Positions 26,895 to 58,734 of a DNA stretch of 64,000 nucleotides are shown here, one piece after another (the stretch's first letter is position 1; the number at the start of each line of letters is the position of its first letter). This DNA comes from Terriglobia bacterium (GTDB lineage Bacteria > Acidobacteriota > Terriglobia > Terriglobales > Acidobacteriaceae). The notes beneath the pieces were generated by a model. The model worked only from the letters and a program-made list of their open reading frames with translations, was not told where the DNA came from and ran no database searches. The stretch is from contig JAIQGE010000001.1 of the NCBI GenBank assembly GCA_020072815.1, positions 434,001 through 498,000 on the forward strand, in the 5' to 3' direction. The position numbers and the translations under genes were made by a program.

Positions 26895-27896
26895 TTAATT
26901 AATGACCTCCGCTTCCCATCCGCACTTTCTGCGCTGGAAAAGCGACAACGTTTGCTTGGCGGTTGTGGGCTCGGCCGCAACTTGCACCAGAATTTTCGCC
27001 GATTCGCCTGCCACGGAAATCAGCAGCAGGATGACGTTTCCCGTGCCTTCCGCCAGCGAGTACAACGGACCGGCGTCCAGGATTCCATGAGCGTCAGCGG
27101 TGAGTGAAACCGTTGCGCCCTCTTTTTGCGAAGCGCGCGCCACGCGCACCACGGCTTTGGCCATCGGCTCGCCGCCGCGCTGCAGGAGAATCTGACGCGC
27201 GGCCAGCGTCAGCGGACGCGTCTCATGCAGCGAATCGCAAACGTCCGCCCGCCGCTCCGCGCACGGATGCGACACCAGAATGTCCCCGTGGTATGACTTC
27301 ATGCGGTTGGAGTAGCGGACAAGGATGGCCTGTGGTTGACGCGTCTGAAGCTGCGTCGCCGGTGTTGATGCTTTGGTCGGAACGAGCGGAGCGTTCTGCT
27401 TTTCGCTCGCCGGTGCGTTTGTCTTGCTTCCGCATGATTTGCTTTCCTCTGGTCCGGTGACGGTCAGGCAGGTGGAAATCAGATCGAACGACTCCGTCGC
27501 CGACGTCACTACCAGGAAATACTGCCCCGGCACAAGGCGGTTCAAGGCAAATCCGCCCGCGGAGTCTGTGACGAGTTTGTAGATCGGGCCTTCAGGGTTG
27601 CGCTTGAGGCTGGCGCAGCGTCCCGGCGCGGAATTCTCCAGCGGCTCAAGCAACGGCAGCAACTGGACTTGAATCCTCGCCGCGCGCACAGGCGCTTCGG
27701 CGTCCACGCTATACAGCGTGCCTTCCAGCGTGACCTGCGGGGATTTTTGCGCGAGTACGGGATTCGCCCCGAAGACGACAACGATAAGAATGATCCGCGC
27801 AGCGTCAAATACGCAAAGTAAGCATTGGGGCAAACTTGAATTGCTTGCCTTCCTCCGTGCCTCCGTGCCTCCGTGGTGGAAGTTCATCCCTTCCAC
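26895..27896 (-). CDS. Secreted protein with carboxypeptidase-regulatory-like domain, between carA and carB
   Basis: A protein of up to 333 residues. A signal-like segment ([16 protein letters not shown]) precedes a Cna-B/carboxypeptidase-regulatory-like beta domain ([40 protein letters not shown]). A Ser/Thr/Pro/Gln linker follows, then a second beta region ([20 protein letters not shown]). The first codons, [14 protein letters not shown], are the translation of an intergenic repeat (CCTCCGTGCCTCCGTGGTGG) that overlaps the carA end, so the true start may lie further in. Its position inside the car operon is unusual. Function is unknown. Confidence 0.65.
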
Positions 27897-29047
27897 TCCG
27901 CCATCATCTTCATGAAATCCTTGAACAGGTACTGCGAATCGTGCGGGCCGGGCGCAGCCTCCGGATGGTACTGCACGCTGAACAGTGGCAGCGTTCGGTG
28001 ACGCAGGCCTTCCAGCGTGTTGTCGTTCAGGTCCACGTGCGTTTTGACCACCTCGGACTCTTTCAGCGAATCCGGGTCCACAGCAAAGTTGTGGTTGTGC
28101 GCGGTGATTTCAATTTTTCCCGTCTCCAGTTGCTTTACCGGATGGTTCCCGCCATGGTGCCCGAACTTGAGTTTGTAGGTCCGGCCGTGCAACGCCAGGC
28201 CGATCAACTGGTGTCCCAGGCAGATGCCGAACACCGGAACTTTCCCCATCAAGCGGCGGATGCTCTCGTAAGCGTAGTTGCAAGGTTCGGGGTCGCCGGG
28301 GCCGTTCGACAGGAACACGCCGTCCGGCGCCATGGCCATCACGTCTTCCGCCGACGTCATCGCTGGGACCACCGTTACCCGGCAGCCTTCGTCCACCAGC
28401 ATGCGCAGAATGTTCTGCTTGATGCCGTAGTCATATGCCACCACGTGGCGTTGCGGGGCTGCGGTTTTCGGCGCAGACCCGGCGGCAACTTTGGCCGCAG
28501 CCACACCCGCAGCATCGGCCGCCGTCACCGGCTGCCGGCCTGTCTCCCAGGTATAGCGTTGCTTGGTGGTGACGACTTTCGCTAAATCTGTTCCATCCAT
28601 CTTGCGGATGGACCGGGCCTTGGACACAAGTTTTTCAGGATCGGTTTCAATGGACGAGATCACCCCGCGCATCACGCCGTGTGAGCGCAGGTGGCGGACA
28701 AGGGCGCGGCTGTCAATATCGGCGATGACCGGGATCTTGAACTTTTCCAGATACTCGTCCGTCACCTGCTGCGACCGCCAGTTGGAACTCACCGCCGAAA
28801 ACTCGCGCACCACCAGCCCTTCGATGTAAGGATGGGTGGCCTCATTGTCTTCAGGATTGGTTCCGTAGTTGCCGATCTCAGGATTGGTCAGGACGACGAT
28901 CTGCCCGGCATAAGAAGGATCGGTGAATATTTCCTGGTAGCCGGTGAGAGAGGTATTAAAAACAACTTCCCCGTAACATTCGCCTTTGGCGCCGTGGCCT
29001 CTGCCGCTGAAGATTCGTCCATCTTCCAGCGCAAGAATTGCCTGCAT
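27884..29047 (-). CDS. carA: Carbamoyl-phosphate synthase small subunit
   Basis: A 387-residue glutaminase subunit that supplies ammonia to CarB. The N-terminal domain shows [18 protein letters not shown] and [16 protein letters not shown]. The class I glutaminase domain has [11 protein letters not shown], the nucleophile Cys in [17 protein letters not shown], and the His-Glu pair in [14 protein letters not shown]. An Ala-rich insertion ([21 protein letters not shown]) separates the domains. The gene overlaps the next gene by 13 bases. The 494 bases upstream are occupied by a nested palindromic repeat rather than an obvious promoter. Confidence 0.96.
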
Positions 29048-29145: not shown

Positions 29146-29543
29146 AACCACAAAGGAAACGAAGAAGCACAAAGGGGGAAACCCAAAACCTTTGAAACAC
29201 GGAGGGAAGGAGGCAACGGAGGATTTGGACTTGTGTGCGACTTTGAGCTCTTCTCTTCTCCACAATTTGCAGAGCCAACCACAAAGGACACGAAGGAACA
29301 CAAAGGGAAAAAACACAATATCTTGAGCAGAGATTACGAACGAAGGCCAGGGAAAACTATTCAGAGAAGAAAACTCACCAAGCTTTGTTTTTCTCCGTGT
29401 CTCCGTGTCTTCCGTGTCTCCGCGCCTCCGCGCCTCCGCGCCTCCGCGGTGAATCTTGTCTTTCTCCGAAATCCTCCGCTACCTCTGTTCCTCCGTGTTT
29501 CAAAGGTTTTGGGTTTGGGTTTCCCTTTGTGTCCTTTGTGGTT
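29146..29543. repeat. About 400-base nested palindrome of intergenic repeats
   Basis: The outer arms begin AACCACAAAGGAAACGAAG (left) and end CCTTTGTGTCCTTTGTGGTT (right). The next inner pair is ACCCAAAACCTTTGAAACAC / GTGTTTCAAAGGTTTTGGGT, so at least 80 bases of each side are mutually inverted. Inside are a second AACCACAAAGGACACGAAGG arm and tandem CTCCGCGC/CTCCGTGT units (29395-29455). It fills the gap between carA and the AhpD-like gene. No protein is encoded. The organisation resembles a composite of REP/MITE-like elements. Confidence 0.75.
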
Positions 29544-30072
29544 AGTGTTTTTCCTGCTCAGTCCCTTTGTAGAACCCTTCGCTGCCGAAGCCGAAAACAC
29601 GGTTCGACCGCGCGCGATAGTTCTCCCAGGCAACCGCCGCAGCCAACTCCACCAATTGCGGCGTGGAGAAGCGCTTCTGCAATCGTTCGCGAAGCTCGGG
29701 CGTCACGCGCGCCGGCGTGGCCGTCATCGCGTCGGCCAGTTCCAGAACAAGCTTCTGGTCGGCGTCAAACAGATTGCTTTCCTGGTGCCAGTTGAGATTG
29801 CGGATTTGTTCGTCGCTCAGGCCCGCCGCCGCACCTGCGGCGGAGTTGATGTCAATTCAAAACGGGCATTCCACCAGCTTTGCCGCCCGGATCTGCGCCA
29901 GCACCTTCAACTTGCGCGGCGCCAGCCTGGTCTTGTCCAGGGCCATGCTGAACTGGGTGTAAGGAATGAGCACATCAGGATTGGTGGCAAGGGTTTCCAG
30001 CGGCGCAATGTCTTTACCCAGACGCTTGCGCGCGAAGCGGCGGATGAGCGCGACCTTGAGGTTCTTCAGCAT
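29542..30072 (-). CDS. AhpD-like (carboxymuconolactone decarboxylase family) protein, probable selenoprotein via in-frame TGA
   Basis: The frame encodes 176 residues if one TGA (29859-29857) is read through. Before it is AQIRAAKLVECPF and after it IDINSAAGAAAGLSDEQIR, so the TGA replaces the second Cys of the redox CxxC (CPFC) of AhpD-type CMD proteins. The remaining 105 codons are intact to AWENYRARSNRVFGFGSEGF. CCGCCGC-AGGT-GCGGCGG starts 13 nt after the TGA and puts a loop G at nt 22, which fits bacterial SECIS rules. ATG 30072 is preferred; codons upstream look repeat-derived. Relatives reduce peroxides or disulphides. The alternative is a fresh nonsense mutation. No sel genes are in the window. 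Confidence 0.7.
29826..29843 (-). promoter_or_regulatory. Candidate bacterial SECIS element
   Basis: CCGCCGC (29843-29837), loop AGGT (29836-29833) and GCGGCGG (29832-29826) form a 7-bp GC-only hairpin inside the coding frame. The stem begins 13 nt and the loop 21 nt downstream of the in-frame TGA. Known bacterial SECIS elements have a small apical loop with a G among its first two bases about 16-37 nt after the UGA. Alanine-rich codons could form such a stem by chance, so the fit is suggestive only. Confidence 0.55.
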
Positions 30073-30218: not shown

Positions 30219-30809
30219 TTATCTCAGCACGCCCAATTTCTCCACCGGCCAATATCCAAAAACCGCTTTTCCGTAGATGTTGTCGCGGGAGACCGGACCA
30301 AAATCGCGGCTGTCATTGGACATGGAACGATGGTCGCCCAGGACGAAATAGGTGTCTGCGGGGACTTCAATTTCCCCATACGAACGGCTATCCAGAAATT
30401 CTGCGGGCACGTAAGACTCTTCCACCCTCTTGCCGTTCACGAAGACGCGTCCGTAGGAAATGCGCAGGTGGTCGCCGGGCAGGCCGATCACCCGTTTGAT
30501 AAAACTCTTGCGCGGATCGCGCGGATAGCGGAACACCACGATGTCGCCGCGATCAATGTTCTCCAGGCGGTATACCAGCTTGTTGATAAAAATGCGCTCC
30601 TGGTCTTCCAGTCCAGGTTCCATGCTGCTGCCTTCCACTTTCACCGGCTGGTAAACAAAAAGAATGATGAAGAAAGCCACCACCACGGAGAAGAACAGAT
30701 CGCGGGCCCAGGAACGCAGCGCGCGCAGTCCGCTGTAAGATGACGAAGATGGCTCCTGCGCGGGCAGGACTGGCTGGACCGGAGGCGGCGGTTGGATTGG
30801 TTCAGGCAT
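30219..30809 (-). CDS. lepB: Signal peptidase I
   Basis: A 196-residue membrane protease that removes signal peptides from exported proteins. ATG 30809 gives a Pro/Gln-rich cytoplasmic N terminus and one transmembrane helix (LFFSVVVAFFIILFVYQ). The catalytic domain has nucleophile Ser62 (VEGSSMEPGL) and general base Lys105 (KSFIKRVIGLPGD). It also has RGDIVVFRYP and the C-terminal signature VLGDHRSMSNDSRDFGPV. The longer frame upstream of 30809 is not protein-like. The gene diverges from the PCYCGC gene at 30925. Confidence 0.95.
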   Translation of the reverse strand: MPEPIQPPPPVQPVLPAQEPSSSSYSGLRALRSWARDLFFSVVVAFFIILFVYQPVKVEGSSMEPGLEDQERIFINKLVYRLENIDRGDIVVFRYPRDPRKSFIKRVIGLPGDHLRISYGRVFVNGKRVEESYVPAEFLDSRSYGEIEVPADTYFVLGDHRSMSNDSRDFGPVSRDNIYGKAVFGYWPVEKLGVLR

Positions 30810-30864
30810 TTTCCTTGGGTCTAACTCCCTTGTTGATTGATTATACGGGGTAAGTCCAGTGCTT

Positions 30865-30886
30865 CTGCCACCCCTTGGGGTGGCAG
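30865..30886. repeat. CTGCCACCCC/GGGGTGGCAG inverted repeat
   Basis: Ten-base arms are separated by TT, midway between the divergent starts of lepB (30809) and the PCYCGC gene (30925). It could be an operator for either gene or an intergenic repeat. No other copy was noticed in the window. Confidence 0.45.
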
Positions 30887-30924
30887 GCATGACCAAAGTC
30901 CATTCTGAGGTAAAATAGGCGAAT

Positions 30925-31374
30925 ATGAAATACTTTTTTGGCTTAGCCGCACTCATTTTTGCCGTCGTCATAACGCACGCCCAGTGGAACCCGCCGGGCG
31001 GTGAAGTTCCCGCCTTTCACGCCACGGCCCCGGCCCAGGGCGCTACGTTGCCTGCAATCCTCACGCAAGCACAGCTGGCCGAATCTGGCCTCACGCAGCC
31101 GGCGCAGAAGGAGTCCTACAAAGCTGCCGCGAAGGGCTCCCGCGTGATGTATCAGATGCCCTGCTACTGCCATTGCGACCGGCACGCCGGCCATACCAGC
31201 CTGCGCAGCTGTTTTGAAAATACCCACGGCGCAAATTGCGGCACCTGCATGGCGGAAGCTCTGTACGCGTATCAGAAGTCCAAAAAAGGTTGGACGCCCA
31301 AGATGATTCGCGAAGGAATTATCCGCGGCGAATTCCAGCAGATTGACCTGCAACATCCTGAACCTGTGAACTAA
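30925..31374 (+). CDS. PCYCGC-motif exported protein
   Basis: A 149-residue protein. A signal peptide (KYFFGLAALIFAVVITHAQ) is followed by a linker and a Cys-rich domain. The domain reads MPCYCHCDRHAGHTSLRSCF and then NTHGANCGTCMAEALYAYQ, the family signature of PCYCGC proteins with six conserved cysteines that likely bind a metal or form disulphides. The ending MIREGIIRGEFQQI is also typical. The biochemical role of the family is not settled; a part in copper handling or envelope redox chemistry is speculation. Confidence 0.85.
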   Translation: MKYFFGLAALIFAVVITHAQWNPPGGEVPAFHATAPAQGATLPAILTQAQLAESGLTQPAQKESYKAAAKGSRVMYQMPCYCHCDRHAGHTSLRSCFENTHGANCGTCMAEALYAYQKSKKGWTPKMIREGIIRGEFQQIDLQHPEPVN

Positions 31375-47900: not shown

Positions 47901-48145
47901 TTCACCGCAAAGGACGCAAAGGGCGCAAAGCTTTCACCGCAGAGAGCGCACAGTAGGGATTCAGGCGAATCGTCGCGGCAAAATAGTTGGCTGCGCTTCC
48001 GACCTTCATCACCGCGATTTTGACGAGGAATCACTGATTCCGCCACGCGTCGAGCGCCGCCGGCGCGAAATGACGGTAGCCCAGGCCGTGAGGCCTGGGT
48101 AGCGACGATAAATAATGACGAGCCCCGGAGGGGCGACACAAGCTG
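47901..48145. repeat. Intergenic repeats: ACCGCAAAGGACGCAAAGG arm and GCCCAGGC/GCCTGGGT hairpin
   Basis: ACCGCAAAGGACGCAAAGGG (47922) is a variant of the CCACAAAGG repeat. TAGCCCAGGCCGTGAGGCCTGGGTA (48067-48092) folds on itself and belongs to a family also found at 57098-57123 and 58393-58420, each next to GCCCCGGAGGGGC-like bases. Confidence 0.55.
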
Positions 48146-58231: not shown

Positions 58232-58734
58232 TTAGCCGGGTGCTCCGCCTATCCCGCACGATGAGCGTAGGTGGAAATCGACATTACATTTCCCCTGGCT
58301 GGGTGGCCCACCTTCCCTCACGCGATACAAGTGTCAAGGCACGAACCGTGGCCGGAATAACATCTCACCCAGCCCCGCAAGGGGCGGAATGAGTTAGCCC
58401 AGGGCGGAAGCCCCGGGTAAGCGTGTTTCGAGATTCGAGCGCCGTAGGTGCGGCACAAGAAATTCTTCGCGCTCAATCAGCAGGCGTTCGCGCGGGCTGT
58501 TGCGCGACTTGCAGGGCAAGAGTGACAAATGAGTGTCGCCACCTACGGGGCTTGTCTTTTTTTCTCGCTTACCCAGGCCTTCCCCACCCCAGCAAGCCAA
58601 AACCGGGCTCGCTGGGGGCCCGGTCCGGCCTGGGCTAGGCTGTTTCGCGCCTGATTGGCGCTCGCGCACAGTTGTGCAAAGGGCTTGTTGGCTCACGAGA
58701 GGCTGCCTAGTGGCCTGCGGCGGTTAGTCTTAGT

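Follow-up and report, generated by a model that had tools for sequence, protein, structure and literature searches.

In a 64,000-nucleotide stretch of DNA from a Terriglobia bacterium of the family Acidobacteriaceae (assembly GCA_020072815.1, contig JAIQGE010000001.1, positions 434,001 to 498,000 of the forward strand), here called the window, a gene of the AhpD/CMD kind was found to contain a single in-frame TGA codon in its redox motif. The gene is referred to as the CPFU gene, U standing for selenocysteine (Sec). The TGA at codon 72 very probably (about 97%) inserts Sec, as in relatives from other soil bacteria. The original prediction of an AhpD-like CxxU selenoprotein was supported by the presence of the Sec machinery in the genome, by the same TGA in 47/47 best homologs and by a conserved hairpin downstream, and sequence evidence alone could hardly make this reading of the gene more secure.

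The CPFU gene and its TGA codon

The predicted coding sequence (29542..30072, minus strand) was found to contain 176 codons from ATG to TAA, read from 30072 to 29542, with exactly one internal stop. This stop is the TGA at 29859-29857, the predicted selenocysteine codon 72 (29857..29859, minus strand), in the context ...LVECPF-TGA-IDINSAAG...; it occupies the second position of the CPFxC motif and would supply the second redox residue of the CxxU motif. The lone TGA in an otherwise open 176-codon frame, as originally predicted, was found to be right in coordinates and letters on retranslation, as were the letters and the spacing of a hairpin CCGCCGC-AGGT-GCGGCGG starting 13 nucleotides after the TGA.

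A sample of 398 genomes of the host's family was searched for homologs, and 306 of them contained matches. The 48 best matches, from 44 genomes, ended at E 1.7e-18 and the next match stood at 1.4e-14; the border of the subfamily was set in this gap after the list had been seen. The site was covered by 47 of the 48 matches, the remaining one being an N-terminal piece (residues 1-58). Each of the 47 (37-100% identical) was found to contain exactly one TGA, located at the codon of residue 72, and a Cys form at this residue was found in 0 of these 47 homologs from the host's family. The codon of close relatives, proposed earlier as a check, was thus TGA and not Cys throughout, with the hairpin conserved, and the subfamily is apparently Sec-only within the host's family. 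The matches below the gap were other AhpD-type genes of about 25-33% identity, some with TGA and many without.

Altogether 58 loci were mapped, containing TGA (51), TGC (4) or TGT (2), with the site absent in one; among the 51 TGA loci, L053 and L054 are repeats of L026 and L031, and another paralog family is represented by L078 and L079. The TGC and TGT forms were found in more distant sequences (L055-L057, L059, L060 and the paralog L080), and L055-L057, 39-42% identical, belong to Acidobacteriota by their record titles. A phylum sample of 396 genomes was searched with the alignment A2 (44 Sec rows and the Cys rows L055-L057), and 84 genomes matched at E<=1e-15. Among the 21 loci read out of 30 in this sample, TGA was found in 14, TGC in 4 and TGT in 1, two (L097 and L104) being read in the wrong frame. 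Most of the 14 TGA loci fold a hairpin 3' of the TGA, that of L093 being weak (-7.4 kcal/mol). A TAA was present inside three phylum matches with TGA at E <1e-38 (L093, L095 and L097), in L093 and L095 at the C-terminal end of the match.

The ratio of nonsynonymous to synonymous differences per site (pN/pS) between the window gene and members of its genus was 0.12-0.22 after the TGA (8 comparisons) and 0.21-0.43 before it (7 comparisons), and was lower after the TGA in 7/7 paired comparisons, all of which share the window gene; the synonymous divergence (dS) reached saturation (infinite values) in three comparisons of the part downstream of the TGA. Such low values are as in-frame translation past the TGA predicts. 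A tree of 66 rows was built from 48 of the 50 aligned rows (the short L031 and L077 omitted), 17 of the 21 phylum loci (L097 and L104, in the wrong frame, and the Cys rows L102 and L109 omitted) and the paralog L084. The label Sec or Cys, with 6 Cys rows, required 4 changes on this tree, and no rooted history was drawn because long branches were flagged in it.

The hairpin downstream of the TGA

The candidate selenocysteine insertion sequence (SECIS) of the bacterial type, at 29826..29843 (minus strand), was found to contain a 7-bp stem of CCGCCGC (29843-29837) with GCGGCGG (29832-29826), closed by the loop AGGT (29836-29833; AGGU in the RNA), which begins 20 nucleotides after the TGA. The minimum free energy (MFE) was -14.1 kcal/mol for the hairpin alone and -15.7 kcal/mol for the 36 nucleotides downstream of the TGA. 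The bacterial constraints given in PMC13188914 are a loop of 3-9 nucleotides with G in the first two positions, a stem of 4-16 bp, a loop 16-37 nucleotides after the UGA and an MFE <= -7.5, and the window hairpin agrees with them in loop (4 nucleotides), stem, spacing and energy. To gauge chance, both strands of the window were scanned: 19 of the 1,977 TGA triplets (1.0%) precede, at SECIS spacing, a stem of 7 or more Watson-Crick pairs whose loop has G among its first two bases, so the hairpin by itself is weak evidence of about 1 in 100, and the conservation of the TGA in 47/47 homologs counts for more.

In the homologs, the 36 nucleotides after the TGA had an MFE of -7.5 kcal/mol or lower in 47/47, and stems of 6 to 8 pairs were found in all 47 with G-U allowed. 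The longest Watson-Crick stem at SECIS spacing contained 7-8 pairs in 29 homologs, 6 in 12, 5 in 5 and 3 in 1; six Cys homologs scanned contained 0-5 such pairs. In the alignment of 47 distinct rows, a canonical stem of columns 15-21 with 25-31, enclosing a triloop, was paired in 94.2% of 329 cells, against 38.3-57.1% when the partner was slid by 1-3 columns. Double changes were found in 18 cells of this stem against a shuffled mean of 8.1, a value reached in 0/500 shuffles. The codons under the stem were also skewed: Ser at +5 after the TGA was TCT in 45/47 and TCC in 2/47, Ala at +6 was GCC in 43/47, and the 43 rows with Arg at +9 contained AGA (38) or AGG (5) and never CGN, which makes up 686/833 Arg codons in the sequences read (some stretches upstream of starts included). 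This skew gives a second line of evidence for the hairpin.

The window hairpin was found in a register differing from the canonical one, with columns 17-23 paired to 28-34 around the tetraloop AGGU. L031 shares this shifted register and L027 has a related one whose loop is 7 nucleotides long, both loci being of the same genus; imposed on all rows, the window register paired only 43.2% of cells. As read from the aligned rows, the SECIS hairpin has slid into another register in some members of one genus, while the UGA was kept.

Selenocysteine machinery and alternative explanations

The host genome (G000; 5,293,082 bases in 32 contigs, completeness 100, contamination 0.14) was found to contain matches above the curated cut-offs for SelA (551.4 bits), SelB (389.2 bits) and SelD (382.4 bits, with one in-frame TGA), together with a tRNA-Sec of anticodon TCA (73.9 bits against a gathering score of 47). 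The expectation that the genome must hold selA, selB, selC and selD was borne out by these matches. With this machinery, SelB and Sec-tRNA(Sec) would bind the hairpin just 3' of the UGA and insert Sec at codon 72, and the product would be a 176-residue all-helical protein of the AhpD/CMD fold with a Cys69-Pro-Phe-Sec72 redox pair.

The selD gene (G000:C8:77253-78182, L019) was read by eye as AAG-U-ASKLS near the start of its frame, at what is presumably the known Sec position of SelD; because of this TGA, the SelD of the host is probably itself a selenoprotein. A tRNA with a long variable arm and the anticodon TTA by ARAGORN was found at G000:C4:118116-118204 (L013); it would read the stop TAA and is possibly of the ochre-suppressor type. 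Suppressor-like tRNAs have been described in Acidobacteria.

A selA match above the cut-off was found in 181 of the 398 family genomes, comprising 41/44 carriers of the CPFU gene against 140/354 of the others (Fisher p 1.8e-12, kinship not corrected); the gene was thus present in 41/181 genomes with such a match and in 3/217 without. Among these three carriers, G351 contained a partial selA match (E 5.8e-66), and all three (G351, G120 and G185) contained a tRNA-Sec above the gathering score with anticodon TCA.

Several observations weigh against a selenoprotein. The covariation in the stem is modest, the double changes being found in 2/7 pairs only, as 129/500 shuffles also reach, and the stem lies within a conserved stretch of the protein. 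In a simple scan the Watson-Crick stem was shorter than 7 pairs in 18/47 homologs, with 5 or fewer in 6 of those, and the Cys homolog L057 reached 9 pairs with G-U allowed. Placed in the canonical register, the window hairpin contained one mismatch and two wobbles. The carriers G120 and G185 were without any selA match, and the gene was absent from 140/181 selA genomes, which would make CPFU one optional selenoprotein.

That the TGA is a nonsense mutation or a sequencing error in a former CPFC gene is extremely improbable: it differs from TGC or TGT by one base and CPFC Cys homologs exist elsewhere in Acidobacteriota (L055-L057), but the same TGA in 47/47 best homologs from 44 genomes is decisive, purifying selection goes on 3' of it, and the Sec machinery is encoded in the genome. 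Slightly less remote, though still very improbable, is that the TGA acts as a stop, or is suppressed by a tRNA other than tRNA-Sec (for example one for Cys or Trp), giving a regulated short or long product. The suppressor-type tRNAs of Acidobacteria would favour such readthrough, but the TTA anticodon found in this genome would read TAA and not TGA; the TGA also stands where homologs have the second Cys of their CxxC motif, and the gene co-occurs with selA and tRNA-Sec. The fit of the hairpin to the constraints in PMC13188914 likewise speaks for Sec insertion.

Relation to known proteins, neighbourhood and meaning

The predicted structure (predicted local distance difference test, pLDDT, 95.5) was found to have the AhpD/CMD fold and matched solved AhpD-like structures, and the Pfam model PF02627 CMD was matched at 27.2 bits, above its gathering cut-off of 23. 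The best NCBIfam match was NF053654 (GroundWater_YciW, YciW-related (seleno)protein), which all 47 members of A2 matched at E<=0.001, yet the window protein scored 91.5 bits where the equivalog cut-off is 310, over residues 43-169 only, and is a different subfamily by score. Two (seleno)protein models, NF053654 and NF041238, were matched at E<=1, and the protein stayed under the cut-off of each, as it did for TIGR00778 AhpD core domain (21.9 against 27.8 bits). Because it reaches 91.5 of 310 bits to the closest NCBIfam model, the CPFU protein apparently forms an as yet unmodelled subfamily within a known kind of selenoprotein.

Selenoproteins of the AhpD-like CxxU kind have been in the literature since 2005, and both AhpD-like and CMD-like ones are already catalogued (PMC1088965, PMC9312934 and PMC13188914); a 2006 survey gives three selenoprotein families in Acidobacteria (PMC1794560). 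The AhpD-like selenoproteins of COG2128/TIGR01926, as described in PMC1088965, PMC13188914 and PMC9312934, are alike in AhpD/CMD type, CxxU motif and bacterial SECIS after the UGA. For TIGR01926 peroxid_rel, the window protein scored 21.9 bits and a CEYU paralog of the host 72.3, both under the cut-off of 81.8, the CEYU protein being closer to the model. The CMD-like selenoprotein PF02627 of PMC9312934 (Table 1) shares, by its description, the CxxU motif and the Pfam CMD domain, and may or may not be identical with the CPFU protein.

Judged by fold and CxxU motif, the best guess for the product is a thiol/selenol oxidoreductase of the cytosol that belongs to the peroxidase-related AhpD proteins. 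The catalysis proposed on the same grounds would start with an attack of Sec72 on a peroxide or another oxidised substrate; the selenylsulfide formed as Cys69 resolves the intermediate would then be reduced by a cellular thiol system. In the classical AhpD peroxidase site a His follows the second Cys at a distance of four residues, for example in CAFCVDMH of 2gmy. In the alignment with 2gmy this position was Asn in the window protein; among the 47 homologs it was Asn in 28, Gly in 17 and His in 2. It is conceivable, if unlikely, that the effectively Sec-obligate subfamily, with its His mostly replaced, does not act as an AhpD-type peroxidase and performs another selenol chemistry, such as reductive removal of a halogen or other leaving group as in Bmp8. 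The Bmp8 debrominase (PDB 6ohi/6ohj) is a fold relative of 17-18% identity but contains Cys instead of Sec.

A second AhpD-type gene of the host, at G000:C4:133579-133974 (L084), likewise carries TGA in its CxxU motif (...NRCEYULASH...). Its hairpin CCGTCTT-GGC-AAGACGG, of 7 bp, starts 13 nucleotides after the TGA, and the relatives L078 and L079 contained CCGCCTT-GGC-AAGGCGG, in which one pair differs on both sides (C-G against T-A).

Upstream of the CPFU gene, on the same strand, an open reading frame was found at 30219..30971 (minus strand), whose product is presumably signal peptidase I-like (lepB-like). By tblastn it was present upstream and on the same strand in 8/8 genus genomes covering that side (L023-L030), with gaps of up to about 510 nucleotides between the match and the selenoprotein start; L053 and the fragment L058 also contained it and are probably repeats of counted genomes. 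Downstream, an open reading frame at 27884..29047 (minus strand), presumably carA-like, was matched by tblastn in 4/9 genus genomes (L023, L027, L029 and L031), and in L054, which has the same sequence as L031 around the TGA; the flanks retrieved for L024, L025, L026, L028 and L030 showed no match to it. This conserved neighbourhood at genus level speaks against a recent insertion of the CPFU gene. Divergent from the lepB-like gene, a small protein with a PCYCHCD motif is encoded at 30925-31374 (plus strand) and was found by tblastn in L023-L030, in L053 and twice in L058. The intergenic stretch just 3' of the CPFU gene (about 29400-29540) was seen by eye to contain many short GGAGGCGC- and ACAAAGG-like repeats. 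Two Acido-Lenti-1 RNAs (RF01687) scored above the gathering score at 48053-48099 and 58371-58417, both on the minus strand.

The CPFU gene adds a new branch to the selenium redox proteins already known and is not categorically new. The branch is a subfamily that falls under the model cut-offs and is apparently Sec-only in the host's family; one of its active-site residues is altered, and in part of one genus its SECIS register has shifted. This shift offers, on a small scale, a natural test of the distance over which a bacterial SECIS may be displaced. An annotation taking the TGA as a stop would give a 71-residue protein, and the gene is easily overlooked by automatic annotation. As the subfamily is present in 44/398 family genomes, a curated model would probably correct the annotation in many genomes, and the predicted selenoproteome of an understudied phylum gains this AhpD type beside SelD and the second AhpD type.
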